Below, one piece after another: positions 9,654 through 29,993 of a DNA stretch of 64,000 bases (the stretch's first letter is position 1; every line of letters begins with the position of its first letter). Origin of the DNA: Streptacidiphilus albus JL83 (GTDB taxonomy: Bacteria; Actinomycetota; Actinomycetes; Streptomycetales; Streptomycetaceae); NCBI RefSeq assembly GCF_000744705.1, contig NZ_JQML01000001.1, positions 1,488,001 to 1,552,000 on the forward strand. Direction: 5' to 3'. Made by a program: the position numbers and the translations under genes. The notes below the pieces were generated by a model. It was not told where the DNA came from. It did not search any database and saw only the letters and a program-made list of their open reading frames with translations.

Positions 9654-11569
9654 TGGACCTGCTCCGGCTCGGTCGGCCGGAGCCACAGTCCGGCCAGCGG
9701 GGGGAGGGTGAGCCGGGCCGTGGCCGGCAGGCCGCGCTGCGGCACCGGGGCCGCGCGGACCGTGCCGAGGTTGCCGACGCCGCTCCCGCCGTAGCAGTCC
9801 GCGTCGGTGTTGACCAGCTCCGACCAGGCCCCGGAGCGCGGCATGGCCAGGGTGAAGCCGTGGTGCACCACCGGACTGAAGTTGAACACGCCGACCAGCG
9901 GTGTGCCGTCGTGGTCGTAGCGGACGGCCGAGTAGACCTGGTGGTCGGCGTCGTCCGCGTCGATCCAGCGGAAGCCGCCGGGGTCCGAGTCGCGCCGCCA
10001 GAGCTCGGCGTGGGCCCGGTAGTGCCCGTTCAGGTCGCGGACCAGCTGCTGGACGCCGCGGTGCCGGTGCCCCTCGACCCCGGGCAGGTCCAGCAGCTGC
10101 CAGTCCAGGCCGCGGTCGTGGTCCCACTCGGTGGTCTGCGCGAACTCCTGTCCCATGAACAGCAGTTGCTTGCCCGGGTGGAACCACATGAAGGAGAGGT
10201 AGGCGCGCAGGTTGGCGAACCGCTGCCAGGGGTCCCCGAACATCTTGGCCAGCAGGCTGCCCTTGAGGTGGACCACCTCGTCGTGCCCGAGGGGCAGCAG
10301 GAAGTGCTCGGAGTGGGCGTACATCATGCCGAAGGTCATCCGGTGGTGGTGGTACCGCCGGTTGACCGGGTCCTCGGCCAGGAAGGCCAGGGTGTCGTGC
10401 ATCCAGCCCATGTTCCACTTCAGCCCGAAGCCGAGGCCGCCGTGGTCGGCGGAGCGGGTGACGCCCTCCCAGGCGGTGGACTCCTCGGCGATCACCACCA
10501 CGTCCGGGCAGCGGCGGGCCAGGGTGCCGTTCAGCTCGCGCAGGAACCGGACCGCGTCCAGGTTCTCCCGACCGCCCTCGGCATTGGGCAGCCACTCCCC
10601 CTCCTCGCGCGAGTAGTCCAGGTAGAGGATGGCCGCCACCGCGTCCACCCGCAGTCCGTCGACGTGGAACTCCTCGCACCAGTACACGGCGTTGGCCAGC
10701 AGGAAGGCCCGCACCTCGGCCCGGCCGTAGTCGAACTGCAGGGTGTTCCAGTCCCGTTGCTCGGCCCGGCGGGGGTCGGGGTGCTCGTAGAGCGCGGTGC
10801 CGTCGAAGCGGGCGAGGGCCCAGTCGTTCTTCGGGAAGTGGGCCGGCACCCAGTCCAGGATCACTCCGATGCCGGACCGGTGCAGCGTGTCCACCAGGTG
10901 GCGGAAGTCGTCCGGAGCGCCCCAGCGCGCGGAGGGCGCGAAGTAGGAGGTGACCTGGTAGCCCCAGGAGCCGCCGAACGGGTGCTCCATCACCGGCAGG
11001 AACTCGACATGGGTGAACCCCAGGTCGGCGACGTAGGCCGGAAGCTGCTCGGCCAGTTGACGGTAGCTCAGACCGCCTCTCCAGGAGCCGAGGTGGACCT
11101 CGTAGACGCTCATCGGCGACTCCTGGACGGCCGCCCCGGCACTCCGTGCGGCCAGCCACTCCCCGTCACCCCAGTCGTATCCCGAGCGGTGGATCACCGA
11201 GGCCGTGGCCGGTGGGCACTCGGCGGCCCGGGCGAAGGGGTCCGCCTTCAGCCGGACCGTCCCGTCCGCGCCCAGCACCTCGAACTTGTAGCGGGCCCCC
11301 TCCTGGGCCTCCGGCACGAATCCCGCCCAGACGCCGCTGGTGCCCACCCGGCGCAGCGGATGGCCGCCGCCGTTCCAGCCGTTGAAGTCCCCGACCACCC
11401 GGACGGCCTGGGCGGCCGGGGCGAGCACGGAGAAGGCCACGCCCGGCCGCACCCCGTCGACCAGGTGCGCGCCCAGGACCCGCCAGAGTTCCTCGTGCCG
11501 GCCCTCCGCGAGCAGGTACAGGTCCAGTTCGCCGAGAAGTCCCCAGTCGCGGCGCGTTCCGGTGCTCAC
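9650..11569 (-). CDS. glgB: 1,4-alpha-glucan branching enzyme GlgB
   Basis: 639 residues. It introduces alpha-1,6 branches into the linear glucan made by GlgE. A CBM48-type domain (VRVVGDFNGWNG) precedes the GH13 barrel, in which VYEVHLGSW, DGLRVDAVA (nucleophile Asp), IAEEST (acid/base Glu) and GHDEVVH are all intact. It is about 90 residues shorter than many streptomycete GlgB proteins, lacking the extra N-terminal domain. GTG at 11569 overlaps the glgE stop as GTGA, so the two are coupled, and its own stop overlaps the kinase start in the same way. Confidence 0.93.
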   Translation of the reverse strand: MSTGTRRDWGLLGELDLYLLAEGRHEELWRVLGAHLVDGVRPGVAFSVLAPAAQAVRVVGDFNGWNGGGHPLRRVGTSGVWAGFVPEAQEGARYKFEVLGADGTVRLKADPFARAAECPPATASVIHRSGYDWGDGEWLAARSAGAAVQESPMSVYEVHLGSWRGGLSYRQLAEQLPAYVADLGFTHVEFLPVMEHPFGGSWGYQVTSYFAPSARWGAPDDFRHLVDTLHRSGIGVILDWVPAHFPKNDWALARFDGTALYEHPDPRRAEQRDWNTLQFDYGRAEVRAFLLANAVYWCEEFHVDGLRVDAVAAILYLDYSREEGEWLPNAEGGRENLDAVRFLRELNGTLARRCPDVVVIAEESTAWEGVTRSADHGGLGFGLKWNMGWMHDTLAFLAEDPVNRRYHHHRMTFGMMYAHSEHFLLPLGHDEVVHLKGSLLAKMFGDPWQRFANLRAYLSFMWFHPGKQLLFMGQEFAQTTEWDHDRGLDWQLLDLPGVEGHRHRGVQQLVRDLNGHYRAHAELWRRDSDPGGFRWIDADDADHQVYSAVRYDHDGTPLVGVFNFSPVVHHGFTLAMPRSGAWSELVNTDADCYGGSGVGNLGTVRAAPVPQRGLPATARLTLPPLAGLWLRPTEPEQVQ

Positions 11570-13638
11570 AGCCGGCTCCGTCGGGCCGTCAGCACCTGGG
11601 CCACCCCGCCGCTGCGCGGGTCGAGCCGCACCATGTTGACCCGGCCCCAGCGGTAGCTGCCGCCGCCGAGTGCGTCGTCCACCATGAAGCTGTCCCCCGG
11701 GCGCATTCCCAGTTCCGCCATGTCGAGTTCGACCCGGCCCTGCTGCGGGCGGTACGGGTTGAGGTTGAGCACCACCAGGACCAGGTCCCCGGGGCCGGCG
11801 TCCGGCCTGGCCGGGGCGAGCCGCTTGGAGAAGCACAGCAGCTGGTCGTTGTCGGTCCGGTGGAAGCGCAGGTTGCGCAGCTGGTGCAGGGCCGGGTGAC
11901 GGCGGCGGATCCGGTTCAGCCGGGTGATCAGCGGGGCCAGGCTCTGGCCCCGGTCCTCCGCCCCGGCGTAGTCCCGGGGCCGGTACTCGTACTTCTCCGA
12001 GTGGCGGTAGTCCTCGCTGCCGGGCCAGGCGGCCACCGACTCGCACAGCTCGAAGCCGGAGTACATGCCCCAGGTGGGCCCGGCCATGGCCGCCAGCACC
12101 GCTCTGATCTCGAAGGCGGCCCGGCCGCCGGTCTGCAGGTGTCCCGGCAGGATGTCCGGGGTGTTGACGAACAGGTTGGGCCGCAGGTAGTCGGCCGAGG
12201 GGCTGCCGTCCAGACCGGCCAACTCGGAGAGATAGGACGTCAGTTCGACCTTGGTGGTGCGCCAGGTGAAGTAGCTGTAGGACTGGTGGAAGCCGACCCT
12301 GGCCAGGCTCTGCAGCATCGCCGGCCGGGTGAACGCCTCGGCCAGGAACAGCACCCCCGGGTCCTCGACCCGCACCTGCTCCAGCAGCCGCTCCCAGAAG
12401 CCCAGCGGCTTGGTGTGCGGGTTGTCCACCCGGAAGATCCGCACTCCCAGCGACCGCCAGTGCCGCAGCACCCGCAGGCACTCCTGGAGGATCCCCTCCG
12501 GGTCGGTGTCGAAGTCGATGGGGTAGATGTCCTGGTACTTCTTGGGCGGGTTCTCGGCGCAGGCGATGGTGCCGTCGAGCCGGTGCCGGAACCACTCCGG
12601 GTGCTCGGTGACCCAGGGGTGGTCCGGGGAGCACTGGAGCGCGAAGTCCATCGCGACCTCCAGGCCGACCGCCTCGGCCCTGGCCACGAACGCGCGGAAG
12701 TCCGCCGTCGTGCCCAGCTCCGGGTGGATCGCGTCATGGCCGCCGTCCGCCGAGCCGATGGCCCAGGGCGAGCCGGGGTCACCGGGCTCGGCGTGCAGCG
12801 CGTTGTCGGGGCCCTTGCGGTGGCTGGTGCCGATCGGATGGATCGGCGGCAGGTAGACCACGTCGAAGCCCATGGCCGCGATGGCGTCCAACCGGGCCGC
12901 CGCCTGCCGCAGGGTTCCCGACCTGACCGCCCCGGGCGAGACCACCGCGCCCTCCGAGCGGGGGAAGAACTCGTACCAGGAGCCGTAGAGGGCCCGGGTG
13001 CGGTCGACCCGCAGGGGCAGCCAGCGGCCGGTGGTCACGTGCTCCCGCAGCGGGTGCCGGGACAGGGCCGCGGCCACCGGCGCCGTGCGCAGCTCGGCGA
13101 GCCGCTCGCCGGCGCTGCGGGCGGCGTCCCGCAGCACGTCGGCCGCCTTGGTCAGGACCGCGCAGTCCTGGGTCTCCTCCCCCGCCGCCTTGGCGGAGCG
13201 CTCCAGCAGGTCCGCGCCCTCCCACAGGCTGAGTTCGGCGTCCACGCCGGCGCTGATCCTGGCGAACGCGGCGCGCATCCAGGTGGCGACCGAGTCGACC
13301 CAGGCCTCCACCCGGTACCGGCAGTCGCCCTCCCGCTCGACCCGGACCGGGCCGCGGAAGCGGTCGGTGCCGCGGACGCCCTCGGCCAGCGGGAAGCGCC
13401 GCTCGCGCTCGGCCTGCTGTCCCGGCTCCCTGGTGGCCAGCACCACCTCGGCGCCCAGGACGTCGTGGCCCTCCTTGAAGACGGTGGCGGAGACCTCGAC
13501 CTGCTCGCCCGGGACGGCTCTGGCGGGCCGCGCGCCTCCGTCGACCTCGGGTCTGCAGTCGGCGATCACGATCCGACCGAGTGGGGACCGGCTCTGCGAG
13601 CCGCTCCTGGCCGGCGCTGAGGTGCTGTTCGTCGTCAC
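11566..13638 (-). CDS. glgE: Alpha-1,4-glucan:maltose-1-phosphate maltosyltransferase GlgE
   Basis: 690 residues, the usual length. GlgE (GH13_3) transfers maltosyl units from maltose-1-phosphate to the non-reducing end of alpha-glucan. The N-terminal domain (VIADCRPEVDGG, VSATVFKEGHD) and catalytic motifs are intact: FALQCSPDHPWV, RVDNPHTKP with the nucleophile Asp near residue 403, and LAEAFTRP with the Glu near 432. It heads a three-gene unit with glgB and the histidine kinase. The substrate could come from the GlgM homologue at 3-848; no treS or maltokinase gene is in this window. Confidence 0.95.
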   Translation of the reverse strand: MTTNSTSAPARSGSQSRSPLGRIVIADCRPEVDGGARPARAVPGEQVEVSATVFKEGHDVLGAEVVLATREPGQQAERERRFPLAEGVRGTDRFRGPVRVEREGDCRYRVEAWVDSVATWMRAAFARISAGVDAELSLWEGADLLERSAKAAGEETQDCAVLTKAADVLRDAARSAGERLAELRTAPVAAALSRHPLREHVTTGRWLPLRVDRTRALYGSWYEFFPRSEGAVVSPGAVRSGTLRQAAARLDAIAAMGFDVVYLPPIHPIGTSHRKGPDNALHAEPGDPGSPWAIGSADGGHDAIHPELGTTADFRAFVARAEAVGLEVAMDFALQCSPDHPWVTEHPEWFRHRLDGTIACAENPPKKYQDIYPIDFDTDPEGILQECLRVLRHWRSLGVRIFRVDNPHTKPLGFWERLLEQVRVEDPGVLFLAEAFTRPAMLQSLARVGFHQSYSYFTWRTTKVELTSYLSELAGLDGSPSADYLRPNLFVNTPDILPGHLQTGGRAAFEIRAVLAAMAGPTWGMYSGFELCESVAAWPGSEDYRHSEKYEYRPRDYAGAEDRGQSLAPLITRLNRIRRRHPALHQLRNLRFHRTDNDQLLCFSKRLAPARPDAGPGDLVLVVLNLNPYRPQQGRVELDMAELGMRPGDSFMVDDALGGGSYRWGRVNMVRLDPRSGGVAQVLTARRSRL

Positions 13639-17532: not shown

Positions 17533-18273
17533 TCAGGACGCGGCGAGCTGCTTCACGAAGGTCTCGGCGAGGGCCTTCGACGAGTAGGGGTTCTGACCCG
17601 TGGTGAGGTTGCGGTCGATGACCACGTGCGAGCCCCAGATGAGCTCGGCCTTCTCGTACTGGGCGCCGAGGCGGACCAGTTCGACCTCCAGGATCAGCGG
17701 GAGCCGGCCGGCCATGTTGGTGACCAGTTCCTCGGCGTGCGAGAAGGCGGTCATCCGGTAGCCCTCGAACGGCCAGTGGCCCTCCCCGTCGCGCAGCGCC
17801 AGCAGCGAGGTGTGCCCGTGGCAGACGGTCGCCAGCGGCTTGTCCTGCTCCAGCACCCACCGGAGCAGCTGCGCCAGCTCGTCGGACTTGGGCAGGTCGC
17901 CGATGGCGCCGTGGCCGCCGCTCACGTAGACGCCGTCGTAGTCCGCCAGCGACTCCGCGGTCAGGTCCTCGATCCGCAGCGGCTGCTTGAGCTGCGGCGC
18001 GGCGTCGATGACGCGGACGTACTCGGCGGCGTTGGCCTCGTCGTTGTTCTCGCTGCCCTGCGGCCGGACCCACTGCAGGAACGCCGGGTCGATGCTGGTC
18101 AGGTCCACGGTCGGCACGGCGCCGTCGATGGTGGCCACGTCGACGTCGTAGCCGGCGTCGCGGAAGATCTGGTAGGGCACCGCGAACTCCTCCGCCCAGA
18201 AGCCGGACGGGTGCTGCTCTCCGTCCAGCAGGTGGAGTGTCGCCTTCGCGGTCATGATCACAAGAATCTTCAT
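17533..18273 (-). CDS. DJ-1/PfpI superfamily protein (class I glutamine amidotransferase-like), copy A
   Basis: 246 residues. An N-terminal KILVIMTAK strand and the nucleophile elbow VCHGHTSLL (conserved Cys) mark the family; the spacing and length resemble Hsp31/glyoxalase III-like and other PfpI proteins. Possible roles are glyoxalase or protein/nucleotide deglycase activity, or a redox chaperone. It leads the molybdenum hydroxylase operon, so protection against reactive aldehydes or dicarbonyls is a reasonable inference. Two other DJ-1 members are in the same block (27354 and 32643), each with a different Cys context. Confidence 0.85.
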   Translation of the reverse strand: MKILVIMTAKATLHLLDGEQHPSGFWAEEFAVPYQIFRDAGYDVDVATIDGAVPTVDLTSIDPAFLQWVRPQGSENNDEANAAEYVRVIDAAPQLKQPLRIEDLTAESLADYDGVYVSGGHGAIGDLPKSDELAQLLRWVLEQDKPLATVCHGHTSLLALRDGEGHWPFEGYRMTAFSHAEELVTNMAGRLPLILEVELVRLGAQYEKAELIWGSHVVIDRNLTTGQNPYSSKALAETFVKQLAAS

Positions 18274-18363
18274 GTCTGCTCTCCCCACGTGGAGTTGTCT
18301 GCGCGGCATTCGATCCGGTAGCCGCGAGTTCGATTTGAGCATGGCGCGGAGCGTCGATCGAGA

Positions 18364-18383
18364 GCGACGGGGAATTCCCCGTC
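18364..18383. promoter_or_regulatory. Perfect 20-bp palindrome between the nucleotidyltransferase and DJ-1 copy A
   Basis: CGACGGGGAATTCCCCGTCG is exactly self-complementary. It lies 104 bp after the nucleotidyltransferase stop and about 90 bp upstream of DJ-1 copy A. It could be an operator of the DJ-1/hydroxylase operon or a terminator hairpin (8-bp stem, AATT loop). Confidence 0.5.
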
Positions 18384-18487
18384 GAGTTAGTCACTTGCAT
18401 TGACCGGAAGACCTCCGACCGGCCCTTGACCAGCGTCCGAATAACACCGGCGAGAATGTCAAGAGCACCTACGGGGCCGTCCGGCGG

Positions 18488-19819
18488 TCACAGCCAGCGC
18501 ATCAGGTCGCCGACGCCCGCCAGGCTCGCGCCCACCGGGATCCGGGCGTTCTCGGCCAGTCGGAGCCCCGGGAACGCGTGGACCCCGCGCAGCCGGGTGC
18601 CGGCCGGCACCCGCACCTCGTCGCCCAGCGCGCAGTACTCGCTGAGCACCACCGGCCGTTCGAGCGTCGAGCGGACGTCCACCATGCAGCCCAGGAAGAC
18701 GTCGGTGAGCCGGGCCCCGGGGCCGATCACCCCGTGGTCGCCGCAGGAGACCCCGCGCAGGGTGCAGCCCTCGCCCAGGTCGACGCCGTCGCCGATGTCC
18801 GACTCGACCAGGGTCACCGCCGGACCGATCTCCACGTCCCGGCCGATCCGGACGCCGGGGCCGATCCGGACGCTGCCGTCGCTGATCTTGTCCGCCAGGG
18901 TCCGGCCGCTGATCGGGTCCTTCATCTCCAGGCTGCTCTCGTGGATCCGCAGCCCGGCCACCGACCCGACCGGCGGGTCGATCCCGGCGCTGAGCAGCGG
19001 GTAACGGTCCAGCAGCACGTCCTTGAGGGTGTCCAGATAACCGGCCGGATGGCCGAGGTCGCCGAATCTGGCGATGGGCTGGGCCAGCACCTGGTAGCCG
19101 TTGGCCACCAGGTACGGCAGCAGGTCGTTGCCCCAGTCGAGCCTGGTCCGCGCCAGCGCCGCCAGGGCCGGGTCGCCGGCGGCCATCCGCAGCCGCTGAC
19201 AGTCGATCAGATACATGCCGGTGCTGGTGTGCAGCAGGTCGGCCGAGCCGGGACCGGCCGCCGCCGCCAGCGCGAGCGCCGCCGCCGGGGCGGGCTTCTC
19301 CACGAAGCGGCGGACCATCCCGTCGCCCTCCACGTCCAGCACCCCGTAGGTGTCGGCCGCCTCCAGCGCCGGTCGCATCACCGTCGCCACGCTCACGTCG
19401 GCGCCGGCCGCCCGGTGCGCCCGGACCAGCTCCGACAGGTCGAAGTCGAAGACCGAGTCGGTGGGCACGACCAGCGCCAGCCCCTCCAGGTCCCAGTAGT
19501 CGAGGGCGCACAGGGTGGCCTGGCCGCTGCCGGTGTTGTCCTGGTCGAACCGCGAGCGGGAGTAACGGACCGTCACGCCCCAGCGTTCGCCGTGGCCCAG
19601 CACCTCCTTGATCTGGACCCGGTTCTCGCGCCCGTTGGCCACCACGTAGTAGTCCTGGACCCCCAGCCCGCGCAGCGCGGTCACCGCCCACTCGATCAGC
19701 GGTCGGCCGGCCAGCGACACCGTCGCCTTGCTCCTGAGATAGTCGCCGGAATTGAGCGTCAGCGGCCTGGCGCGAATTCCCCGGCCACCTGCCAGGGCAA
19801 TTGTCGAGACTTCTTCCAT
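18488..19819 (-). CDS. Sugar-1-phosphate nucleotidyltransferase with left-handed beta-helix tail
   Basis: 443 residues. The N-terminal nucleotidyltransferase fold is shown by IALAGGRGIRARPLTL, and the C-terminal third has hexapeptide repeats (IGPGVRIGRDVEIGPAV). This resembles GlgC, RmlA/GalU-like and mannose-1-phosphate transferases. The usual lysine after the signature (KPMVP or similar) reads SKATVSLAG. It would make an NDP-sugar; the base and sugar are unknown. Lying downstream of the ParA-like ATPase and partner-switch genes, it may supply nucleotide sugar to the neighbouring glucan enzymes. It is the last gene of the long run that starts at 33467. Confidence 0.8.
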   Translation of the reverse strand: MEEVSTIALAGGRGIRARPLTLNSGDYLRSKATVSLAGRPLIEWAVTALRGLGVQDYYVVANGRENRVQIKEVLGHGERWGVTVRYSRSRFDQDNTGSGQATLCALDYWDLEGLALVVPTDSVFDFDLSELVRAHRAAGADVSVATVMRPALEAADTYGVLDVEGDGMVRRFVEKPAPAAALALAAAAGPGSADLLHTSTGMYLIDCQRLRMAAGDPALAALARTRLDWGNDLLPYLVANGYQVLAQPIARFGDLGHPAGYLDTLKDVLLDRYPLLSAGIDPPVGSVAGLRIHESSLEMKDPISGRTLADKISDGSVRIGPGVRIGRDVEIGPAVTLVESDIGDGVDLGEGCTLRGVSCGDHGVIGPGARLTDVFLGCMVDVRSTLERPVVLSEYCALGDEVRVPAGTRLRGVHAFPGLRLAENARIPVGASLAGVGDLMRWL

Positions 19820-19843
19820 TTCATCCCCCGTCCAAGATCGGGA

Positions 19844-20566
19844 CTAGTCGAGGAGCACGTCGATCAACTGTCGGAAGTCCGCGACCATCGAATGCCGGGG
19901 GCGGGCTTCGAAAAGAATTTTCTCGCCGTCGAGCTGCGCTATTTCCGGGGCGTAGGGCAGCAGGACGGCCGGCGCTCCGTACAGCCGCTCGGCCCGGCGT
20001 CGGGCGAGCTCCGCGTCGACGTTCCCCGATGACATGTTGATCACCACGGAGCGGCGGCACTCCAGTCTCCGGGCCAGGGCGACGGTCTCCTCGGCCCCGG
20101 CCAGCTCGGCCAGCTCCGCCCGGACGACCGTGACCAGCACGTCGGCACAGGCGATGGCGGTCATCGTCTCGTTGTTGGGCCCGGTGTGGGTGTCGAGCAG
20201 CAGCGTGTCCAGACCGTAGGCGGAGACGAGCCGGTTGAAGCCCTCCGGGAGCAGGCCCACGTCGTACCCGGTGAACATGATCTCCCCCAGCGGACAGGAC
20301 TGGTTCAGGGCCGGGACCAGCCTCAGCCCGGTACTGCTCACCACGTGCGCGGCCGACTCGATGTCGCATCGCCCCAGCAGGTAGTCGCCCAGGCAGTCGG
20401 CACGCGGGCCGAGGCCGAACATGCCGTCCAGCGCCGGGGACTGGAGGTCGGTGTCGACCATGGCCACCCGGCCGCCGGCCTGGGACAGCAGCACGGCCAG
20501 ATTGGCCAGCACGGTCGACTTTCCGGTACCGCCGCGATGCGAGTGGAAGACGACGGTCTGCGCCAT
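19844..20566 (-). CDS. ParA/MinD-family deviant Walker ATPase
   Basis: 240 residues. The deviant Walker A motif (HRGGTGKSTVLANLAVLL) with its signature lysine and the VDTDLQSP switch define the SIMIBI ParA/MinD class. It has no long N-terminal receiver domain and no visible C-terminal amphipathic helix, so membrane binding is uncertain. There is no ParB or chromosome-type parS nearby. The ATG follows the phosphatase stop directly (20567), so they are one transcription unit. It could position or switch the partner proteins encoded upstream, as MinD/CpaE-like ATPases do. Confidence 0.85.
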   Translation of the reverse strand: MAQTVVFHSHRGGTGKSTVLANLAVLLSQAGGRVAMVDTDLQSPALDGMFGLGPRADCLGDYLLGRCDIESAAHVVSSTGLRLVPALNQSCPLGEIMFTGYDVGLLPEGFNRLVSAYGLDTLLLDTHTGPNNETMTAIACADVLVTVVRAELAELAGAEETVALARRLECRRSVVINMSSGNVDAELARRRAERLYGAPAVLLPYAPEIAQLDGEKILFEARPRHSMVADFRQLIDVLLD

Positions 20567-21787
20567 TCAGGCCACCGCCGCGTGCTTGCGGTGCAGGGCC
20601 ATCATGGTGACGTCGTCGTGCTGGTCGGCCGGACCGGTGTGCGCGAGCACCGCCCGGTCCACCCGGTCGATCAGTGCCCGGCCGTCCGCCGCGGGCTCGG
20701 ACAGCAGCGCCAGCATCCGCTCCTCGCCCAGGAACTCGCCGTCCGTGTTCCGGGCCTCGGACACGCCGTCGGTGTACATGAACAGGGTGTCACCCGGTTC
20801 CATCTGGGCGTACCCGAGCGTGAAGACCCCGTCGGCCAGCACCCCGACGGCGGGTCCGGTGACCTCCAGGGCGGACAGTTCCCCGGTCCGGCGGGTGATC
20901 AGTTGGGGCGGGTTGTGGCCGCCGTTGATGTAGACCAGGCTGCCGGTGGCAGGGTCGAGCACGCAGAAGAACAGGGTGGCGAAGTAGCCCTGGCGCAGGT
21001 GGTTCCGGGTCAGGTAGCCGTTGGTGCTCAGGACCGCGTTCATCATCGGCGTGGCCCCGACCACGGGCAGGGTGCCGATCGGATCCGGTCCCCCGGCGAC
21101 CAGGTGCTGCAAGCCGCTGTGCTCGGCCGCGTGCCGCAGCAGGCTCCGGATCAGCGCCATGAACAGCGCCGCGCCCACGCCCTTGTCGCAGACGTCGGCC
21201 ACCACCAGGGCGAGCCGGCGCCGGTGCGCCACCTCGAACACGTCGTAGAAGTCCCCGGCGACCTGCCGGGCCGGCCGGAAGCTGACGCCGATGTCCCAGC
21301 CCGCGGGCGTGGGCAGCTCCTCCGGCAGGAACCCCGCCTGGATCTGCCGGCCGATGGCCAGTTCCCGCTCGTTGCTGAGCCGGTCGGCCCGGGCATGGGC
21401 CTCGCTCAGGCTCTGGCTGAAGTCGGCCCGCTCCGAGCAGCTGTGCAGCCGCGAGTGCACCAGGGCCGGCAGGAACGGCGGCACCAGGAAGTCGTGGCCG
21501 ACCCGGACGTGCGCCTCCAGCTCTGCGAAGTCCTCCTCCGTGTAGACCACGACGATCGGGTTGCTGCCCGGACCTGCCAGACGCCGTGCGGCTGCCGCGA
21601 CCGAGGCCGGCTCGACCCTGGCGGAGGCGAGCAGCACGTCGGTCTGCGGCAGTGCCGAAGGCGGTCGCGAGAGCAGTTCGAGCAGGCCCAGTTCGGAGAT
21701 GGTCACCTCGTCCGACTCCAGCGCTCGTAACAGGTTGGCCGGTGGAGAAGAGGGCTCAATGAGAATCAGGATCGCGATTCCTGACAT
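20567..21787 (-). CDS. PP2C/SpoIIE-type serine phosphatase with a degenerate receiver-like N-terminus
   Basis: 406 residues. GGAGGAGG precedes the ATG. Residues 1-120 resemble a receiver fold without a clear acidic pocket. The PPM/SpoIIE catalytic domain follows, with metal-binding motifs VAGDFYDV, VADVCDKGVG, GGHNPP, YTDGVSEAR and DDVTM. Such phosphatases dephosphorylate STAS anti-anti-sigma factors. Two STAS genes (22240 and 24720) and an RsbW-like kinase (21813) are in the same operon, giving a complete partner-switching set without an adjacent sigma factor. Confidence 0.9.
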   Translation of the reverse strand: MSGIAILILIEPSSPPANLLRALESDEVTISELGLLELLSRPPSALPQTDVLLASARVEPASVAAAARRLAGPGSNPIVVVYTEEDFAELEAHVRVGHDFLVPPFLPALVHSRLHSCSERADFSQSLSEAHARADRLSNERELAIGRQIQAGFLPEELPTPAGWDIGVSFRPARQVAGDFYDVFEVAHRRRLALVVADVCDKGVGAALFMALIRSLLRHAAEHSGLQHLVAGGPDPIGTLPVVGATPMMNAVLSTNGYLTRNHLRQGYFATLFFCVLDPATGSLVYINGGHNPPQLITRRTGELSALEVTGPAVGVLADGVFTLGYAQMEPGDTLFMYTDGVSEARNTDGEFLGEERMLALLSEPAADGRALIDRVDRAVLAHTGPADQHDDVTMMALHRKHAAVA

Positions 21788-21812
21788 GTGGGATCCTCCT
21801 CCATATTGCCTA

Positions 21813-22229
21813 TCAGCGACGGACTGTCAGGATGCTGACGTTCCGTCCGGTGTCACAGGCGTAACTGAACTCGTCGAGACTGCTGAGGGCGAGGTAGATG
21901 CCGAGGCCGCCGATCGGGCGGGCCTCCGGCGGCACGGTCGGGTCGGGTGGCCGCATCCGGGTCCGCGGGTCGAAGAGCGGGGCCTGGTCCTCCAGTCGGA
22001 TCCAGACCCGGTCGTGCTCCACCCCGCCGGACACGGTGATCGTCCCGGCTTCCTCCCGGTATCCGTAGGTCACGGTGTTGGTGGCCAGTTCGTCCACCGC
22101 CAGGCGGAGACGGTAGCCGACCTGGTCCGGCAGTACTGCGAGCCGGGCCAGGTCGACCACGAAGCACTTGATCTCCTCCAGGCCCGTGAACGAAGCGGGC
22201 ACCCGCAGCACGGATGCCCCCTCGGTCAT
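21813..22229 (-). CDS. RsbW-like anti-sigma/serine kinase (GHKL ATPase)
   Basis: 138 residues. The GHKL fold is shown by the N-box VDELATNTVTYGY, DQAPLFDP and the G-rich IGGLGIYLALSSLDE. Single-domain proteins of this kind bind a target (often a sigma factor) and phosphorylate a STAS antagonist. The STAS gene lies 10 bp upstream and the phosphatase 25 bp downstream, the expected order of a partner-switch module. The target is not visible in this window. Confidence 0.88.
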   Translation of the reverse strand: MTEGASVLRVPASFTGLEEIKCFVVDLARLAVLPDQVGYRLRLAVDELATNTVTYGYREEAGTITVSGGVEHDRVWIRLEDQAPLFDPRTRMRPPDPTVPPEARPIGGLGIYLALSSLDEFSYACDTGRNVSILTVRR

Positions 22230-22239
22230 CGCGGCCGAC

Positions 22240-22551
22240 TCAGCAGTCGATGAGCGTGCAGCTGCGGTCCAGGCCGGCCGCGCGGATGATCCGGGCCACC
22301 GGAGCCGCCGCGCCGACCACCCGGATCTCCACCTCCTCGCCCATCTTCTGCCGGGCGAAGACCAGCGAGCGCAGCCCGGCGCTGGCCATGTAGGTGAGCC
22401 CGGTCATCCGGATCTCCACCGTGGCCAGGCCGCGCGAGGCGGCCTTCTCGATGGTCTCGTGGAAGTCACCGGCCGTGGTGGCGTCGAGCTCGCCCACCAG
22501 CTCGATGATGGAGGTGTCCGCGGTGTTGCTGAACGAGAGAGTGAGGGGCAT
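22240..22551 (-). CDS. STAS-domain anti-sigma factor antagonist, copy 1
   Basis: 103 residues, a single STAS domain. The phosphorylatable serine is Ser57 in TYMASAGLRSLV, at the position of the DSSG serine of SpoIIAA-type antagonists. It is the likely substrate of the RsbW-like kinase (21813) and PP2C phosphatase (20567). It begins 45 bp after glgX and is followed closely by the kinase gene. Confidence 0.88.
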   Translation of the reverse strand: MPLTLSFSNTADTSIIELVGELDATTAGDFHETIEKAASRGLATVEIRMTGLTYMASAGLRSLVFARQKMGEEVEIRVVGAAAPVARIIRAAGLDRSCTLIDC

Positions 22552-22596
22552 GGTCTTGTCCTTCCGAGTTGTCGCTTGCCTTGCGGGGCGTGCGGT

Positions 22597-24723
22597 TCAG
22601 GGCCGCACCGGGCGCCGGCCGACCAGGACCACCACCGAGCGCGGTCCGATCCGGTAGCTGGAGGGATCCTCCAACTCGGGTTCCCTGCCCACCTGGTGGA
22701 GGTCGTGCGGGGCCGGCGCGAAGGTGTCCACGGCGATGTGCCAGACCATGCCGCCCGGCAGCTGCGGCAGGTTCAGCGTCTGCGCCTCCCAGTGCGCGTT
22801 CATCGCCGTGTAGACGCAGTCGCTGTCGCCCAGGCCGCTGCGCAGCACGGCCAGCAGCCTGCTGTCCGCGGACCAGTCCGGGTTGCCGACCTCGGTGCCG
22901 TGCCAGCTGACGTCGGGCAGCTGGTCCCCCTCGGGGGTGCTGCCGTCGGGGTGGCCGGAGGACCGGAGGACCATGTGCGCGGACCTGAAGGCGATCAGCC
23001 CGCGGGTGAAGTCCAGCAGTTCGGCGTTGCTCTCGGCCAGGCCCCAGTCCACCCAGGACAGTTCGTTGTCCTGGCAGTAGGTGTTGTTGTTGCCCTGCTG
23101 GGTGCGGCCGAACTCGTCGCCCGACAGCATCATCGGCACGCCCTGGCTGGTGAACAGGATGGCCAGGGCGTTCTTCATCTGCCGCCGGCGCAGCGCGTTC
23201 ACCTCGGGGTCGTCGGTCGGCCCCTCGACGCCGCAGTTCCAGCTGTTGTTGTCGTTGGCGCCGTCGTTGTTGCCCTCGCCGTTGGCCTCGTTGTGCTTGT
23301 CGTTGTAGCTGACCATGTCGGCGAGGGTGAAGCCGTCGTGCGCGGTCAGGAAGTTGATCGAGGCGGTGGCGCCCCGGCCGGCGTAGAGGTCGGGCGAGCC
23401 GACCACCCGGGCGGCCAGCTCGGTCACCGTGCCGGAGTCCCCCTTGAGGAAGCGCCGCACCGTGTCCCGGTACTTGCCGTTCCACTCGGACCAGCGGCCG
23501 TAGGCCGGGAACCGGCCAACCTCGTACAGGCCCGCCGCGTCCCAGGCCTCCGCGATCAGCTTGCACTCGCGCAGCACCGGGTCGAAGGCCAGCAGCTCCA
23601 GCAGCGGCGGGTTGGGGATCGGGGTGCCGTCCTCGTCCCGGCTGAGGATGGCCGCCAGGTCGAAGCGGAAGCCGTCCACGTGGAAGTCGGCGACCCAGTG
23701 CCGCAGACAGGAGAGCACGAACTCGCGCACCACCGGGTGGTTGCAGTTGACCGTGTTCCCGGTCCCGCTGAAGTTGTAGTAGTAGCCCTCGGGCGTGAGC
23801 ATGTAGTAGGTGGCGTTGTCCAGCCCCCGGAAGGAGATGGTCGGGCCCAGCTCGTTGCCCTCGGCCGTGTGGTTGAAGACCACGTCCAGCACCACCTCGA
23901 TGCCGGCCGCGTGCAGGTCCTTCACCAGGGTGCGGAACTCGTCGGACTGCATCCCCCAGCGCCCGGTGGCCGCGTAGCCCGCCTTCGGCGCCATGAACGA
24001 CAGGGTGTTGTAGCCCCAGAAGTTGTACAGCTGCTCACCGGTGTCCGGGTTGGTGCGGGAGTTGTCGCACTCGTCGAACTCGAAGATCGGCATCAGCTCC
24101 ACGCAGTTGACGCCGAGCTGCCTGAGGTAGGGGATCTTCTCGCGCAGGCCGGCGAAGGTGCCGGGGGCGAGGGTGCCGGAGGACGGGCTCTGGGTGAAGC
24201 CGCGGACGTGGGCCTCGTACACCACCAGGTCCTCGGTGGGGATCCGGGGCGGGGTGTCGGTGCCCCAGTCGAAGTCGTCGAGGCCCACCCGGGACCGGTA
24301 CTGGTAGCCGTCGTTCCAGTCGGGGACCTTGCCCCAGACGTCCCGCCCGGAGACGATCCGGGCGTACGGGTCGCTCAGCACCCGGCGCGGGTCGAAGCGG
24401 TGCCCCCGGGTCGGCTCGAACGGGCCGTCGGCGCGGAAGCCGTACTCGATGTTGTCGTGGTCCAGGCCGAACACGGTCATCGAGAAGATCGCGCCGGTGC
24501 GGAACTCGTCCGGGTACTCCAACTCGGCGTAGGGCTCGGAGTCGCCGCGCTTGAAGAGCACCACGCTCATCGCGGTGGCCTGGTTCGAGTACACCGCGAA
24601 GTTCACCCCGCCGGGGACCAGGGTGGCCCCCAGCGGGAACGGACGGCCGACCCTGACGCCGAACCCGGAGATCTGGTGGGTCGGGTAGGAGTCGATCCGG
24701 TGGATGCTCCGGGCGCCGGTCAC
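22597..24723 (-). CDS. glgX: Glycogen debranching enzyme GlgX
   Basis: 708 residues, normal length. It hydrolyses alpha-1,6 branches of glycogen. A CBM48 domain (GATLVPGGVNFAVYS) precedes the GH13_11 barrel with VVYEAHVRGFT, DVVFNHTAEG, DGFRFDLAA (nucleophile near 352), LIAEAWD (Glu near 390) and LTAHDGFTLAD. The GTG start overlaps the stop of an upstream STAS gene as GTGA, an unusual coupling between a catabolic glucan enzyme and a signalling protein. A second STAS gene follows. It complements GlgE/GlgB encoded 9 kb downstream. Confidence 0.94.
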   Translation of the reverse strand: MTGARSIHRIDSYPTHQISGFGVRVGRPFPLGATLVPGGVNFAVYSNQATAMSVVLFKRGDSEPYAELEYPDEFRTGAIFSMTVFGLDHDNIEYGFRADGPFEPTRGHRFDPRRVLSDPYARIVSGRDVWGKVPDWNDGYQYRSRVGLDDFDWGTDTPPRIPTEDLVVYEAHVRGFTQSPSSGTLAPGTFAGLREKIPYLRQLGVNCVELMPIFEFDECDNSRTNPDTGEQLYNFWGYNTLSFMAPKAGYAATGRWGMQSDEFRTLVKDLHAAGIEVVLDVVFNHTAEGNELGPTISFRGLDNATYYMLTPEGYYYNFSGTGNTVNCNHPVVREFVLSCLRHWVADFHVDGFRFDLAAILSRDEDGTPIPNPPLLELLAFDPVLRECKLIAEAWDAAGLYEVGRFPAYGRWSEWNGKYRDTVRRFLKGDSGTVTELAARVVGSPDLYAGRGATASINFLTAHDGFTLADMVSYNDKHNEANGEGNNDGANDNNSWNCGVEGPTDDPEVNALRRRQMKNALAILFTSQGVPMMLSGDEFGRTQQGNNNTYCQDNELSWVDWGLAESNAELLDFTRGLIAFRSAHMVLRSSGHPDGSTPEGDQLPDVSWHGTEVGNPDWSADSRLLAVLRSGLGDSDCVYTAMNAHWEAQTLNLPQLPGGMVWHIAVDTFAPAPHDLHQVGREPELEDPSSYRIGPRSVVVLVGRRPVRP

Positions 24724-25055
24724 CGCAGCACCCGGGCGGGGTCGCTCGGCCCGTCGGACTCGAAGAAGTCCAGGAACCCGGTGACCGACATGACGAACCG
24801 GAGCTCGTCGCTCAGCCCGCTCAGCCGCACCGAGGTCCCGCCGTGCTGGGCCTCCCGGTAGAGCACCAGCAGGGTGCGCAGGCCGGCGCTGGAGACGTAG
24901 CCGACCGCGTACAGGTCCACGACCAGCGGGTTGCCCTCGGCGACCAGCGGCAGCAGCTGGTCCAGCAGCCCCTCCGAGGTCGAGCTGTTGATCTCGCCGC
25001 CCAGCTCCACGATGGTGCCGCTGGTGCCGCGGCGGACGGTGACTTCGAGGCTCAT
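24720..25055 (-). CDS. STAS-domain protein, copy 2
   Basis: 111 residues, single STAS domain with the serine motif GYVSSAGLRTLL. ATG at 25055 overlaps the preceding stop as ATGA, and the 3' end overlaps glgX as GTGA. It is more like the copy at 22240 than like canonical SpoIIAA. Two antagonists with one kinase could allow branching or competition in the partner switch. Confidence 0.88.
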   Translation of the reverse strand: MSLEVTVRRGTSGTIVELGGEINSSTSEGLLDQLLPLVAEGNPLVVDLYAVGYVSSAGLRTLLVLYREAQHGGTSVRLSGLSDELRFVMSVTGFLDFFESDGPSDPARVLR

Positions 25056-26890
25056 CGCTCCGCACCCGCCTTCGGCACCGGCCGCAGCCGCACCTTGACC
25101 GAGACCCGCTCGTCGCCCTCGGGCAGCCGGACCGTCAGCGCGGTGGCGTCGAAGTCCGTGTGGTCCTTGCCGTCGATCTCGACCGAGGCCAGCTCGACCG
25201 CGCCGGCCGGCAGCAGGTCGGGCGAGACCCGCAGGGTCCGCTCCGGCAGGGCGTTGGGCGTGGGCTTGAAGTAGAAGTCCATCTCCCGGCCGTTGAGCAG
25301 CAGGTTGTTGTAGACCGCGGCCAGGTAGCAGAGCTCGGCCGAGTGGTACATGCTCATCGAGTGGCTGCCCTTGAGCCGCTCCGTGCCCAGCAGGTACGGC
25401 ATGCCGTCCGCCAGCACGTTGAAGTAGACGGCGCCCTCGTCGTGGTCCAGGAAGAAGGTGTTGTAGAAGGACTCCGCCTGCCGGGCCTCGCGCTGGTACT
25501 CGGTACCGCCCACCACGCCGCCCAGGATCAGGTAGGCCAGGATCGCCTGCTCCTGCTGCCACCAGGCCTTGCGGTCGTGCCAGGCGAAGCGGTGGTAGTC
25601 CTCGCCGTCGCGCTTGATCCGCTCCACCACGTCGTACCAGCCGCCGCGCTGCCGGTCGCTGCCGGCCGCGGGCATCAGCGCGGCGATCTTGGTGGCCAGC
25701 TCCTGGTACTCGGCCTTGGGACGCAGCGAGTTCATCCGCATCAGGTTCCAGGCGATCTTCAGGTTGTGGCCGACCACCGCGCGGTTCTGCTGCCAGCCGT
25801 GGGTGGTGTCGTGGGACCAGTCGCGGTGGAAGCGCTCCTGGACGAAGGGGCTGGTCTTGTAGTCCGGGAACCGCTCGACGATGGTGTCGAAGGTGGTCTC
25901 CAGGAAGTCCGCGTACTTCTCGTCGCCGGTGGCCAGGTACAGGTTGACCAGGTAGGCGGGCGCGTGGTCGCCGACCGAGTTCCAGTTCTTCCGCTCGCGG
26001 TTCTCGCCCAGGGTGTCGTGGTCCGCCCGGAACAGGATCGGGTCGACGTGGGAGTAGTAGCCGCCCTGCTCGGCGTCGTGGAAGAACTTCTCGAACAGCC
26101 GGATGGTCGCGTCCGCGTCGCCCTTGATCGCCGGGTCGCCGGTGATCCGGTAGGTCTGGATCGGGCCGGCCAGGGCGTAGATCTGCTCGTACATCGGGAT
26201 GGCGTCGTAGTCGTCGGAGAACTCCGAGGTGAACAGCTTGCGCTCGCTGTCACCGTCGATCTTGATGCCGTGGTACCAGTAGACGACGTCGTCCTCGTTG
26301 TCGACCACCCGCATGTGCTTGCGCAGGTACTCGGTGCCGCGCTCGGCGACCTCCAGGTACTCGTCCTTCCCGGTCAGCAGGTAGGCCGAGGCCATCCCGT
26401 AGACCAGCCGGGAGATGGTGTCGGTCTCCTGGACGTGGCTGTCGGTCTTCTCGCCGCCCAGCCGGATCTCGGTCCGGTACTCGTCGAAGTCCACCACGCC
26501 CTCCGGGAACTGGGCCCGGCGGTAGAAGTCGGCCAGCGACTCGATCTGGTTGACCCACCAGCCCCCCTCCTCGAAGCGGTAGTCCTCGGCCTGCCGGCCG
26601 GTGAACACCAGCCGCTTGGCCTCGCAGTGCACCTGGTCGCCCTTGGGGTAGAAGACCCCGCCGACGAAGAGGAAGCGCCCCGGCGAGAGCATCTCGTCGA
26701 TGTGCGCGGAGGCGTCGGTGTACGGCTCGTCGAGGTTGCGCAGCAGTTCGGCGCTGGGGTCGCCGGCCAGCGACACCGTGAAGCGGCGGTCGTCGGCGGT
26801 GCGCACCCGCAGGATCCGGGCGTCCGAGTCGAAGTGCTCGACGTAGCCGGCGAGGGTGTCGGAGAACGTGAAGTTCGCTGAATCAGTCAT
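25052..26890 (-). CDS. (Alpha/alpha)6-barrel protein related to the N-acylglucosamine 2-epimerase family
   Basis: 612 residues. After a 100-residue beta-rich N-terminus there is a long helical barrel with AGE-like features (THGWQQNRAVVGHNLK, AWNLMRMNSL, WWQQEQAILAYLILGG, YHSAELCYL). AGE-family and related barrels isomerise or hydrolyse sugars. The extra N- and C-terminal regions are not typical of AGE epimerases. AAGGAG precedes the ATG, and both ends overlap neighbours by ATGA. A sugar or oligosaccharide substrate is inferred from fold and context; the reaction is unknown. Confidence 0.7.
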   Translation of the reverse strand: MTDSANFTFSDTLAGYVEHFDSDARILRVRTADDRRFTVSLAGDPSAELLRNLDEPYTDASAHIDEMLSPGRFLFVGGVFYPKGDQVHCEAKRLVFTGRQAEDYRFEEGGWWVNQIESLADFYRRAQFPEGVVDFDEYRTEIRLGGEKTDSHVQETDTISRLVYGMASAYLLTGKDEYLEVAERGTEYLRKHMRVVDNEDDVVYWYHGIKIDGDSERKLFTSEFSDDYDAIPMYEQIYALAGPIQTYRITGDPAIKGDADATIRLFEKFFHDAEQGGYYSHVDPILFRADHDTLGENRERKNWNSVGDHAPAYLVNLYLATGDEKYADFLETTFDTIVERFPDYKTSPFVQERFHRDWSHDTTHGWQQNRAVVGHNLKIAWNLMRMNSLRPKAEYQELATKIAALMPAAGSDRQRGGWYDVVERIKRDGEDYHRFAWHDRKAWWQQEQAILAYLILGGVVGGTEYQREARQAESFYNTFFLDHDEGAVYFNVLADGMPYLLGTERLKGSHSMSMYHSAELCYLAAVYNNLLLNGREMDFYFKPTPNALPERTLRVSPDLLPAGAVELASVEIDGKDHTDFDATALTVRLPEGDERVSVKVRLRPVPKAGAER

Positions 26891-27354
26891 GACCCACTCC
26901 TTCGGTCGCTGTCTCTGTGCTGCCCGCGGTTCTGCGTTGCTGTGGTTCCCTGCGGTTCGTCGTCCACGAAGCCCTGGCTCACCTCGACGATCACGCCGTC
27001 CGGGTCGCGCAACCAGACGGTGCGCCAGCCGCAGATGAAGTCGTCGAAGCCCAGCGGCCCCAGGGTCACCTCGGCCGCCCCGCCCATGGCGGCCAGGAAC
27101 CCGTCCACGTCGTCGGTCTGGAACGCCAGGTGGCGCATCCGGCCCGGCTCGGCCGGGCCGTCGTGGTCGGCGGTCTGCGACGCGGCCTGCTCGGCCGCGA
27201 AGAGCTCCAGGTAGGCCTCGCCCCGGCGCAGGAAGATGATCGAGGAGTCCCCGAGGTCGACCACCCGGGCCCGGCTGAAGCCGAACCAGCGGGTGTAGAA
27301 GTCCTCGGTCGCCTTCTGGTCGAGGCAGTTGAGGCCCACGTGCGACCAGCGCAT
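26887..27354 (-). CDS. VOC-superfamily (glyoxalase/bleomycin-resistance-like) protein
   Basis: 155 residues. WSHVGLNCLDQKATEDFY, the central MRHLAFQTDDVDGF and the final LRDPDGVIVEV mark paired beta-alpha-beta-beta-beta modules of the vicinal oxygen chelate fold. Candidate metal ligands His6, a central His and the Glu in VIVEVSQ are present. Members are glyoxalases, dioxygenases or epimerases. The start overlaps the DJ-1 stop (TGATG) and the end overlaps the barrel gene. With three DJ-1 proteins nearby, dicarbonyl handling is plausible. Confidence 0.82.
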   Translation of the reverse strand: MRWSHVGLNCLDQKATEDFYTRWFGFSRARVVDLGDSSIIFLRRGEAYLELFAAEQAASQTADHDGPAEPGRMRHLAFQTDDVDGFLAAMGGAAEVTLGPLGFDDFICGWRTVWLRDPDGVIVEVSQGFVDDEPQGTTATQNRGQHRDSDRRSGS

Positions 27355-27968
27355 CAGGACTCCCCCCGGGCCGCGCGCTCGGTCAGGACGGTGATCAGCC
27401 GGCGGGCGAACAGGTGGTGGTGCGCGCCGGTGCGCCCGGTGACCAGGTCGCCGCCGTCCACCACCACGTCCTCGTCGACGTACTCGGCGCCCATGTTCCT
27501 GATGTCGCCGATGAGGTTGTTGTGGCAGACCACCTTGCGGCCGCGCACCTCCTCCGGGATCGAGGCCGCCAGCCACATGCCGTGGCAGATGATGCCCTTG
27601 ACCACCGAGGGCTCGGCGAAGGCGCGCTGCAGCAGCGCGGTGGCCGGGGCCAGCCGGTCCACGTCCTCGGTGTAGCGCAGCCGGTCGGCCACCATGCCGG
27701 AGGGCACGATCAGCGCCGCGTAGCCGCGCAACTCGTCGTCGGACAGCCCCTCCAGGCCGCGGTCGACCTCGAACGGGGCCCGGTACTCGTGCCCGCTGAA
27801 GGTGATCCGCTCCTGGCCCCAGAGCCGGGTGAGGAACTCCACCCGGGCGCCCTCCTCGGCGAAGCGGTGCTGGTAGTAGAAGATCTCCGGCTCGTAGTAG
27901 TCGCTCTCCATCAGGACGGCGATCCGCTTGCCGGACAGCGGGCCCGGCTTCAGCACGGCCTCAGACAC
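27354..27968 (-). CDS. DJ-1/PfpI superfamily protein, copy B
   Basis: 204 residues. The nucleophile elbow is GIICHGMWLAAS, preceded by a conserved Glu in LMESDYYEPE. Its CHGMW context is typical of PfpI-type proteins. It starts 8 bp inside the GMC oxidoreductase 3' end and ends on the VOC start, so translation is tightly coupled. Likely activity is deglycase, glyoxalase III or amidase-like; substrate unknown. Confidence 0.85.
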   Translation of the reverse strand: MSEAVLKPGPLSGKRIAVLMESDYYEPEIFYYQHRFAEEGARVEFLTRLWGQERITFSGHEYRAPFEVDRGLEGLSDDELRGYAALIVPSGMVADRLRYTEDVDRLAPATALLQRAFAEPSVVKGIICHGMWLAASIPEEVRGRKVVCHNNLIGDIRNMGAEYVDEDVVVDGGDLVTGRTGAHHHLFARRLITVLTERAARGES

Positions 27969-29559: not shown

Positions 29560-29588
29560 CGATACCTCCTCGCTCGGACAGCGGCGGA

Positions 29589-29960: not shown

Positions 29961-29993
29961 CGCTGTCTCCCTGCTCGTGACTGGATATCGGTG

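Follow-up and report, generated by a model that had tools for sequence, protein, structure and literature searches.

A streptomycete gene run resembling the cyanobacterial icfG cluster, with glgX between two STAS genes of a partner-switching module

The icfG cluster of Synechocystis is the closest described system and comprises slr1856 (STAS), slr1857 (isoamylase), slr1859 (STAS), slr1860 (phosphatase), and slr1861 (kinase). According to papers citing Shi 1999 and Gonzalez 2001, Slr1861 phosphorylates both Slr1856 and Slr1859, and IcfG dephosphorylates Slr1856 but not Slr1859. The slr1852-1862 region has been reported to be a salt-repressed operon, and mutants of the icfG cluster are described as having glucose and inorganic-carbon phenotypes. 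Slr1861 has also been reported to hold SigC as an anti-SigC factor; control of SigC was shown for the pair of Slr1861 and Ssr1600, the latter encoded outside the icfG cluster. The RsbV/RsbW/RsbU and SpoIIAA/SpoIIAB/SpoIIE systems have the same kinds of switch proteins as the locus described here, namely a STAS antagonist, a HATPase kinase, and a SpoIIE-type phosphatase with the expected motifs. Partner switches with targets other than sigma factors also exist.

We analyzed a stretch of 64,000 nucleotides from Streptacidiphilus albus JL83 (contig NZ_JQML01000001.1, positions 1,488,001 to 1,552,000), hereafter called the window. On its minus strand, genes for AGE, STAS1, GlgX, STAS2, a HATPase kinase, and a PP2C phosphatase lie head to tail. 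AGE (25052..26890, 612 aa), an enzyme of the N-acylglucosamine-2-epimerase superfamily (PF07221, 66.5 bits), is the counterpart by position of Slr1855. STAS1 (24720..25055, 111 aa), the second antagonist, corresponds by position to Slr1856; the isoamylase-type debranching enzyme GlgX (22597..24723, 708 aa, GTG start) to Slr1857; and the anti-sigma-factor-antagonist-type STAS2 (22240..22551, 103 aa) to Slr1859. The RsbW/SpoIIAB-type serine kinase and anti-sigma candidate (HATPase; 21813..22229, 138 aa) and the PP2C/SpoIIE phosphatase with a divergent receiver-like N-terminus (20567..21787, 406 aa) are counterparts by family of Slr1861 and IcfG, respectively. The first-pass annotation had placed glgX between two STAS genes with the kinase and then the phosphatase downstream, and the open frames bore out this arrangement. 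A promoter and terminator scan of 18000-33800 gave matches no more numerous than in shuffles.

The flanks of this run, also on the minus strand, carry further genes. A DJ-1/PfpI family gene (27354..27968; PF01965, 56.5 bits) heads the conserved block and is followed by a glyoxalase-fold gene (26887..27354; PF00903, 44.7 bits), which overlaps AGE by ATGA. Directly after the phosphatase is an orphan MinD/ParA-like ATPase (19844..20566; PF01656, 50 bits), then a sugar nucleotidyltransferase with NTP_transferase and hexapeptide-repeat domains (18488..19819; PF00483, 94 bits) that reached no listed NCBIfam cut-off. Farther along are GlgE, the maltose-1-phosphate maltosyltransferase (11566..13638; PF11896, 168 bits; PF21702, 88 bits; no match in an NCBIfam search at 1e-30), and the branching enzyme GlgB (9650..11569; NF003811, 925 bits against a cut-off of 741), which overlap by 4 bases. 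Because GlgE, GlgB, and the nucleotidyltransferase accompany GlgX and AGE, the run has the appearance of a unit dedicated to alpha-glucan, which would be expressed with its own carbon-state switch if the genes are co-transcribed in this organism. The same kinds of enzyme occur elsewhere in the genome, with a GlgX at 3.197 Mb and GlgE and GlgB approximately 12-21 kb away from it.

Both antagonists matched the STAS family (PF01740) well above its cut-off of 22.6 bits (STAS1, 61 bits; STAS2, 55 bits), and STAS2 also matched TIGR00377 at 65 bits. Their candidate phosphorylation sites, Ser56 in STAS1 and Ser57 in STAS2, lie in an (S/A)SAGLR motif, and this serine was retained in 72 of 73 STAS1 rows and 68 of 68 STAS2 rows, the window included. 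The kinase matched HATPase_c_2 (PF13581) at 64 bits, and its N-box Glu and Asn plus one further Asp were found in all 68 rows. The phosphatase matched SpoIIE (PF07228) at 150 bits, and 66 of the 67 rows have its candidate metal-site Asp residues, the remaining row being gapped; at its N-terminus, only PF21695 was matched, at 21.2 bits and under its cut-off of 27. GlgX exceeded the cut-off of the GlgX equivalog TIGR02100 (698.5 against 640.9 bits) and has the candidate catalytic residues. These residues, chosen from what we take to be the GH13 catalytic positions, were present in 79 of 79 rows, or in 78 of 79 with one gap. AGE fell far short of the N-acylglucosamine 2-epimerase equivalog (NF052547, 26.5 bits against a cut-off of 600). 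A structural model of AGE built from 12 rows (mean pLDDT 74.7) had cellobiose and glucose 2-epimerases as its nearest structures, and an epimerase function is suggested only at the level of the superfamily.

We compared the window with 80 related loci, which were fetched for carrying AGE. STAS1-GlgX-STAS2 was retained in 64 of them, spanning 21 genus-level groups and four phyla. Contig ends truncate five loci, and a further 11 were off pattern: in eight, AGE carries a fused STAS domain and no kinase gene was detected; L116 showed neither STAS2 nor kinase; L120 had STAS2-HATPase-PP2C apart on the opposite strand; and L119 was without STAS1. In contrast, none of 28 ordinary GlgX loci checked at the domain level had a STAS neighbor, which indicates that the arrangement is more than chance. 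MinD directly followed PP2C in 50 of 81 sequences (the 80 loci and the window). In a separate cyanobacterial set, 12 of 13 loci had DJ-1-AGE-STAS1-GlgX-STAS2, and the DJ-1 gene preceded AGE in all 12 loci with the STAS pair; in L214, L215, and L216, PP2C and then HATPase followed, as in the slr order. We take slr1854 of Synechocystis to be the corresponding DJ-1 gene.

The window has GlgX between STAS genes, a HATPase and a SpoIIE-type PP2C in the run, and AGE just upstream, as in the icfG cluster. Its order and content match slr1855-1861 as the genes are named in PMC12329169 and PMC8670252; the likeness to PCC 6803 is one of gene order, published gene names, and relatives, as no PCC 6803 sequence was identified among the loci. 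A published slr1857 forward primer (PMC4911114) had no exact match in the related loci but differed by one or two bases from the start of GlgX in L107, L110, and two further genomes, each represented by two loci. One kinase with two antagonists, as the first-pass annotation proposed, is common to both clusters and is borne out in the Synechocystis counterpart by the reported action of Slr1861 on Slr1856 and Slr1859. The icfG cluster itself went unrecognized in that annotation. Unlike Synechocystis, the window has HATPase before PP2C, a 4-base overlap of STAS1 and GlgX, and the additional MinD, GlgE, and GlgB genes. The phosphatase N-termini also differ: that of the window is receiver-like and divergent, whereas those compared from cyanobacteria have HAMP with a sub-threshold Cache (L215) or GAF (four further proteins). 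Compared with Rsb and SpoIIA partner switching, the window has two antagonists per kinase, metabolic genes inside the module, and no linked group-3-type sigma gene found; by the criterion of a cognate sigma gene in the operon, it is not a Sigma-B-type (Rsb) operon. The cluster is already known from Synechocystis, and the streptomycete cluster is its soil-bacterium version. The open-licence literature, as far as its text was available, yielded no icfG-type combination outside cyanobacteria and no epimerase with a STAS domain, and the available portions of PMC6213207 and PMC4694148 did not show either.

The GlgX and STAS trees show that parts of the window share ancestry with cyanobacterial icfG-type clusters, beyond gene order. 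All 27 sampled STAS-flanked GlgX proteins fell in one clade with a support of 100, together with those of L119 and L054, and form a lineage of their own. GlgX of the window was 62% identical to the cluster GlgX of four cyanobacterial genomes compared to 47-50% for the other two GlgX proteins of its own genome. These other two belong to a different lineage, and a profile search found no STAS neighbor for them. In the STAS tree, STAS1 (40 rows, support 98/99) and STAS2 (35 rows, support 98/83) formed separate clades and are two old lineages.

The first-pass annotation had also read the overlap of the STAS1 stop and glgX start as translational coupling. The overlap is real, with GTGA common to both genes at 24723-24720, and the STAS1 start likewise lies within the stop of the preceding AGE gene (ATGA), a junction absent from that annotation. 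However, 4-base overlaps occur at 6 of 22 junctions in the run. A start codon was possible at the overlap position in 56 of 57 STAS1-GlgX pairs from Actinomycetota and Deinococcota (a set dominated by Streptomyces; a start codon at that place need not be in use), but in 0 of 13 pairs from Cyanobacteriota and Chloroflexota. Since the overlap is missing from the cyanobacterial and Chloroflexota pairs although the cluster exists there, and since 4-base overlaps are common within the run, we rejected the argument from coupling to joint control. Of the broader proposal, that glycogen mobilization and signaling output are set together, one part is supported, namely that GlgX belongs to a conserved partner-switch gene set.

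An icfG-type carbon-status operon, in which a switch of kinase, two antagonists, and phosphatase is combined with GlgX and AGE, is probably the best explanation for these data. By analogy with the Synechocystis work, we infer that the HATPase would phosphorylate STAS1 on Ser56 and STAS2 on Ser57, and that PP2C would dephosphorylate at least one STAS when its N-terminal sensor is triggered. The unphosphorylated STAS would bind the kinase and so set its target free, the target most likely being an RNA polymerase sigma factor whose gene lies elsewhere. GlgX and AGE would make up the metabolic side of the operon and would debranch and process alpha-glucan. Counting against an icfG operon with a sigma target, one group-3 sigma query, which would miss ECF types, found no group-3-type sigma gene in the window or 93 related loci, and the SigC partner Ssr1600 lies outside the Synechocystis cluster. 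The 11 off-pattern loci also count against the icfG reading. A group-3 sigma output may reach GlgX in actinomycetes, for which the listing of a GlgX gene as down in a sigF mutant of Mycobacterium smegmatis, in exponential phase only (PMC4694148), is a hint and no more.

Approximately 1 kb to the left of the window, and about 21 kb from the phosphatase, is a full-length sigma gene that we read as group 3 (G000:C1:1486453-1487613). In nine other cluster-bearing genomes, the nearest sigma match seen, in G361, lay about 30 kb away from AGE, and we treated the gene left of the window as a coincidence rather than a linked target. For the window's own genome, seven group-3 sigma matches were listed.

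More than one alternative scenario was weighed against the carbon-status operon. A glucan gene and a switch could have met in one operon and then spread by horizontal transfer with no functional link. The distribution of AGE is indeed patchy (54 of 394 Streptomycetaceae genomes, one a weak fragment; 19 of 244 cyanobacterial genomes, the chosen center included; and, among 296 Actinomycetota genomes, a strong match only in the window's own), and L120 keeps its switch genes apart. Nevertheless, the order held in 64 loci of 21 genus-level groups, the AGE-STAS fusions, and the reported phenotypes of icfG-cluster mutants make a mere neighborhood very unlikely. A reading of STAS1 and STAS2 as recent, redundant duplicates can practically be dismissed: both match the same families, yet they share only 23% identity, form distinct clades spanning four phyla, and have Synechocystis counterparts that reportedly do not behave alike as substrates of the kinase and the phosphatase.

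The switch could instead act on enzymes, and not or not only on a sigma factor, with STAS2 or STAS1 binding AGE, GlgX, or the MinD-like ATPase in a contact governed by kinase phosphorylation. A domain-level recheck, rather than the best-family label of each frame, revealed a STAS2-like domain inside the AGE open frame in 12 sister loci: the eight among the 80, and L052, L053, L055, and L226. The match was weak (23-32 bits) in L052, L053, and L055; Pfam STAS on the fused AGE was above its cut-off in 5 of 9 checked, below it in L226, and absent in L052, L053, and L055. The switch serine was replaced in 11 of the 12 fused domains, and no kinase gene was found near the fusions, both of which are expected if a fused domain needs no switching. 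Of all the observations, these fusions hint most strongly at a direct contact of the switch with the enzymes, and they fit such action no less well than they fit a sigma switch; the retention of STAS1-GlgX-STAS2 in four phyla, while none of 93 loci was found to have a linked group-3-type sigma gene, points the same way. On the other hand, Slr1861 is reported to be anti-SigC, a fused STAS lacking its serine may be purely structural, no STAS-GlgX fusion was seen in the loci checked at the domain level, and proximity of genes is not contact; the accessible icfG-related literature contained no report of GlgX contacting a switch protein. We regard action on enzymes as possible but doubtful. A specific version, in which a STAS2-type domain contributes to the working of AGE and, in the window, STAS2 docks on AGE or GlgX only while unphosphorylated, with STAS1 competing for the kinase, would make the glucan machinery itself the output of the switch, and we hold it to be unlikely. 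If it is true, phosphorylation would gate glucan processing in place of, or ahead of, transcription.

The icfG cluster has so far been discussed, in the sources available, as a cyanobacterial device balancing inorganic carbon and glucose. Streptomycetes and other actinomycetes, as well as Chloroflexota and Deinococcota, carry this core too, which shows that the switch-GlgX-AGE unit does not depend on photosynthesis. The non-cyanobacterial clusters offer tractable hosts for finding the signal and the target, and the AGE-STAS fusions give concrete, testable ground for asking whether the switch acts on enzymes directly.

In the S. albus JL83 window, the gene block lies on the minus strand in the order DJ-1 (27968-27354), a glyoxalase-fold protein (GLO, 27354-26887), an N-acylglucosamine-2-epimerase-superfamily enzyme (AGE, 26890-25052), the anti-sigma-factor-antagonist-type protein STAS1 (25055-24720), GlgX (24723-22597), STAS2 (22551-22240), an RsbW/SpoIIAB-type kinase candidate (HATPase, 22229-21813), a SpoIIE-type phosphatase (PP2C, 21787-20567), a MinD/ParA-like orphan ATPase directly 3' of PP2C (20566-19844), and a sugar nucleotidyltransferase (19819-18488). 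Four-base overlaps join GLO to AGE, AGE to STAS1, and STAS1 to GlgX. Downstream on the same strand are a DJ-1 gene, three hydroxylase-like genes, GlgE, GlgB, and a cNMP-binding histidine kinase. We read the three-gene set as a molybdenum hydroxylase of the CO-dehydrogenase/xanthine-dehydrogenase type; its putative large subunit scored below every NCBIfam cut-off listed. Upstream of DJ-1 are a thiamine-diphosphate enzyme, three SnoaL-like proteins, and a GMC oxidoreductase. The co-directional run comprises 23 genes with a maximum intergenic gap of 211 bases, as calculated from gene coordinates, and a promoter and terminator scan of 18000-33800 gave signals not above background. The histidine-kinase frame (7875-9653, minus strand) continues into a SnoaL-like domain and encodes 592 aa. 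On the plus strand, 33669-35366 holds a receiver domain and a thioredoxin-reductase-like flavoprotein in one frame; many of the best 80 of 541 loci carry a relative near the cluster.

The first-pass annotation had placed glgX between two STAS genes, and this was borne out by the open frames and by related loci alike. Loci were collected by an AGE-alignment scan and the best 80 of 541 were examined, so that counts are a share of AGE loci and not of GlgX genes in general. STAS1-GlgX-STAS2 was present in 64 of these 80 (52 Actinomycetota, 9 Cyanobacteriota, 2 Chloroflexota, and 1 Deinococcota), spread over 21 genus-level groups with Streptomyces accounting for 38 of the 64. Among the other 16, the block is interrupted by a contig end in five (L095, L103, L109, L112, and L126) and eight have GlgX beside a STAS-fused AGE (L113, L115, L121, L130, L131, L133, L134, and L135). 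In L116 and L120, STAS1 precedes GlgX but the next gene is not STAS2; L120 carries STAS2, HATPase, and PP2C elsewhere, on the opposite strand. L119 has STAS2, HATPase, and PP2C, and STAS1 was not found in a domain-level recheck of the locus. As a control, 30 GlgX loci from 118 genomes of the class were examined, the window being one of them. One other, in genome G753, has a cluster-type GlgX (66% identity) with STAS on both sides. Around each of the remaining 28 GlgX genes (47-51% identity), no STAS domain scoring at least 15 bits was found within about 1.5 kb on either side.

AGE matches were found in 54 of 394 Streptomycetaceae genomes (JL83 itself counted, and one match being a weak fragment) and in 19 of 244 cyanobacterial genomes (the chosen centre counted). 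Across 296 genomes of Actinomycetota, the only strong match was in JL83, and 5 others were weak and partial. The full AGE-STAS1-GlgX-STAS2-HATPase-PP2C-MinD order was present in 15 of the 20 Streptomycetaceae loci read completely. The other 5, with AGE at 57-60%, had no switch gene by tblastn; a domain recheck found a weak AGE-fused STAS domain in L052, L053, and L055, a separate STAS-like domain after GlgX in L054, and neither STAS nor GlgX in L051.

Of the three GlgX copies in the 9.9-Mb, single-contig genome of JL83, the one at 3.197 Mb scores 1005 bits, that at 1.98 Mb 969 bits, and the window copy 697 bits. This last copy shares 62% identity with cyanobacterial cluster GlgX and 47-50% with the other two. 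In a quick tree of 52 GlgX rows, all 27 STAS-flanked GlgX fell in one clade (support 100), which also took in L119 and the long-branched L054; 13 ordinary GlgX formed a second group (support 100), and 10 GlgX beside an AGE-STAS fusion formed a third (support 99).

STAS1 and STAS2 of the window are 23% identical. In a 90-row tree, 40 STAS1 rows lay on one side of a branch (support 98/99), 35 STAS2 rows formed another branch (98/83), and 15 rows of other STAS genes of JL83 were separate from both; this tree has few columns and some long branches flagged by the tool, and its STAS labels were assigned by two profiles. The candidate switch serine was kept in 72 of 73 STAS1 and 68 of 68 STAS2 rows, window rows counted. 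The sole exception, with Gln, is the GlgX-linked STAS1 of Actinoplanes sp. RD1 (L100, 11875); a second STAS1-STAS2-HATPase-PP2C set is nearby on the opposite strand (about 18972-21270). Also conserved were the N-box Glu and Asn and one further Asp of HATPase (68/68 rows), its second-box glycines (66 or 67 of 68), the candidate Asp residues of PP2C (66/67, the remaining row being gapped), and the candidate GlgX residues (79/79, or 78/79 with one gap), positions we take from family knowledge to be the catalytic ones.

This conserved arrangement is of a known kind. Its Synechocystis counterpart comprises the putative antagonist genes slr1856 and slr1859, the isoamylase gene slr1857, icfG (slr1860), and slr1861, whose product is reported as a kinase for Slr1856, Slr1859, and Ssr1600 and as anti-SigC; IcfG dephosphorylates Slr1856 and not Slr1859 (PMC12329169). 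Slr1856 is described as the better kinase substrate, and deletion of slr1859, not slr1856, as slowing growth in carbon-limited medium with glucose (PMC11619594). Other papers report slr1852-1862 as a salt-repressed operon with slr1855 named an epimerase (PMC8670252), two glgX genes including slr1857 (PMC3859321), and production of slr1857 as a recombinant debranching enzyme (PMC4911114). In effect, the phosphorylation test proposed in the first-pass annotation has already been carried out on the cyanobacterial counterpart. Two cyanobacterial loci (L215 and L216, genomes of 3.8 and 4.0 Mb) have the slr order and a 639-aa phosphatase frame. Unlike the Synechocystis icfG cluster, the window has the kinase gene before the phosphatase gene.

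Phosphatase N-termini were scanned for domains in ten proteins, six of them cyanobacterial. GAF was found in 4 of those 6, HAMP with a sub-threshold Cache match in L215, and no further domain in L225. Both Chloroflexota phosphatases had a receiver, one additionally with GAF, and those of L106 and L111 had no named N-terminal domain. The window PP2C had only a sub-threshold receiver-type match and aligns with the Chloroflexota receivers; in our reading of the alignment, it shows no clear sign of the usual phospho-acceptor Asp or of the Lys, and the acidic pocket is variable among relatives. The core is thus retained across clusters while the input differs. The MinD-like ATPase directly follows PP2C in 50 of 81 sequences (the window plus the best 80 of 541 loci). 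By manual count in the same 80 loci, with flanks reaching about 10 kb past AGE, GlgE then GlgB lies 3' of the switch in 17 and GlgB without GlgE in 3. The window pair (9650-13638, minus strand), in the same run and 3' of the switch, is an extra alpha-glucan set beside the genome's glycogen genes near 3.2 Mb. No group-3-type sigma gene was found in the window or 93 related loci by a search blind to ECF sigma factors, the only other match among the 93 being a 32-residue stretch in L083. A full-length sigma gene, which we read as group 3, lies about 1 kb outside the window (G000:C1:1486453-1487613; L227 8451-9614); in nine further genomes that carry the cluster, no such gene lies near it.

Twelve loci encode AGE and a C-terminal STAS2-like domain in one open frame (L113, L115, L131, L133, L135, L121, L130, L134, and L226, and weakly L052, L053, and L055). 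The fused domains scored 87-95 bits in five Nostocales loci, 78 in L130 (Planctomycetota), 63 in L226 (a cyanobacterium), 47 in L134 (Chloroflexota), 42 in L121 (Actinoplanes), and a weak 23-32 in the three Streptomycetaceae (L052, L053, and L055). Pfam STAS was over cut-off in 5 of 9 fused proteins tested (L113, L115, L121, L130, and L134), slightly below it in L226, and absent from L052, L053, and L055. Only L226 keeps the switch serine, the other 11 having Thr (5), Arg (4), Glu (1), or Lys (1) in its place, and no HATPase of at least 15 bits was found within the examined flanks of any of the 12 loci. A quick tree that took in 9 of the 12 placed the fused domains among STAS2 rows, apart from STAS1 (one side of a branch, 97). 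In a quick AGE tree the fusions formed two groups, compatible with one fusion event or two. No STAS in the same frame as GlgX was found in the domain-level recheck of the loci. Partners fused in one lineage and neighbors in another are a classical pointer, short of proof, that hints at a working AGE-STAS contact. For a possible direct contact of the switch with AGE or GlgX, the best lead is the AGE-STAS fusions.
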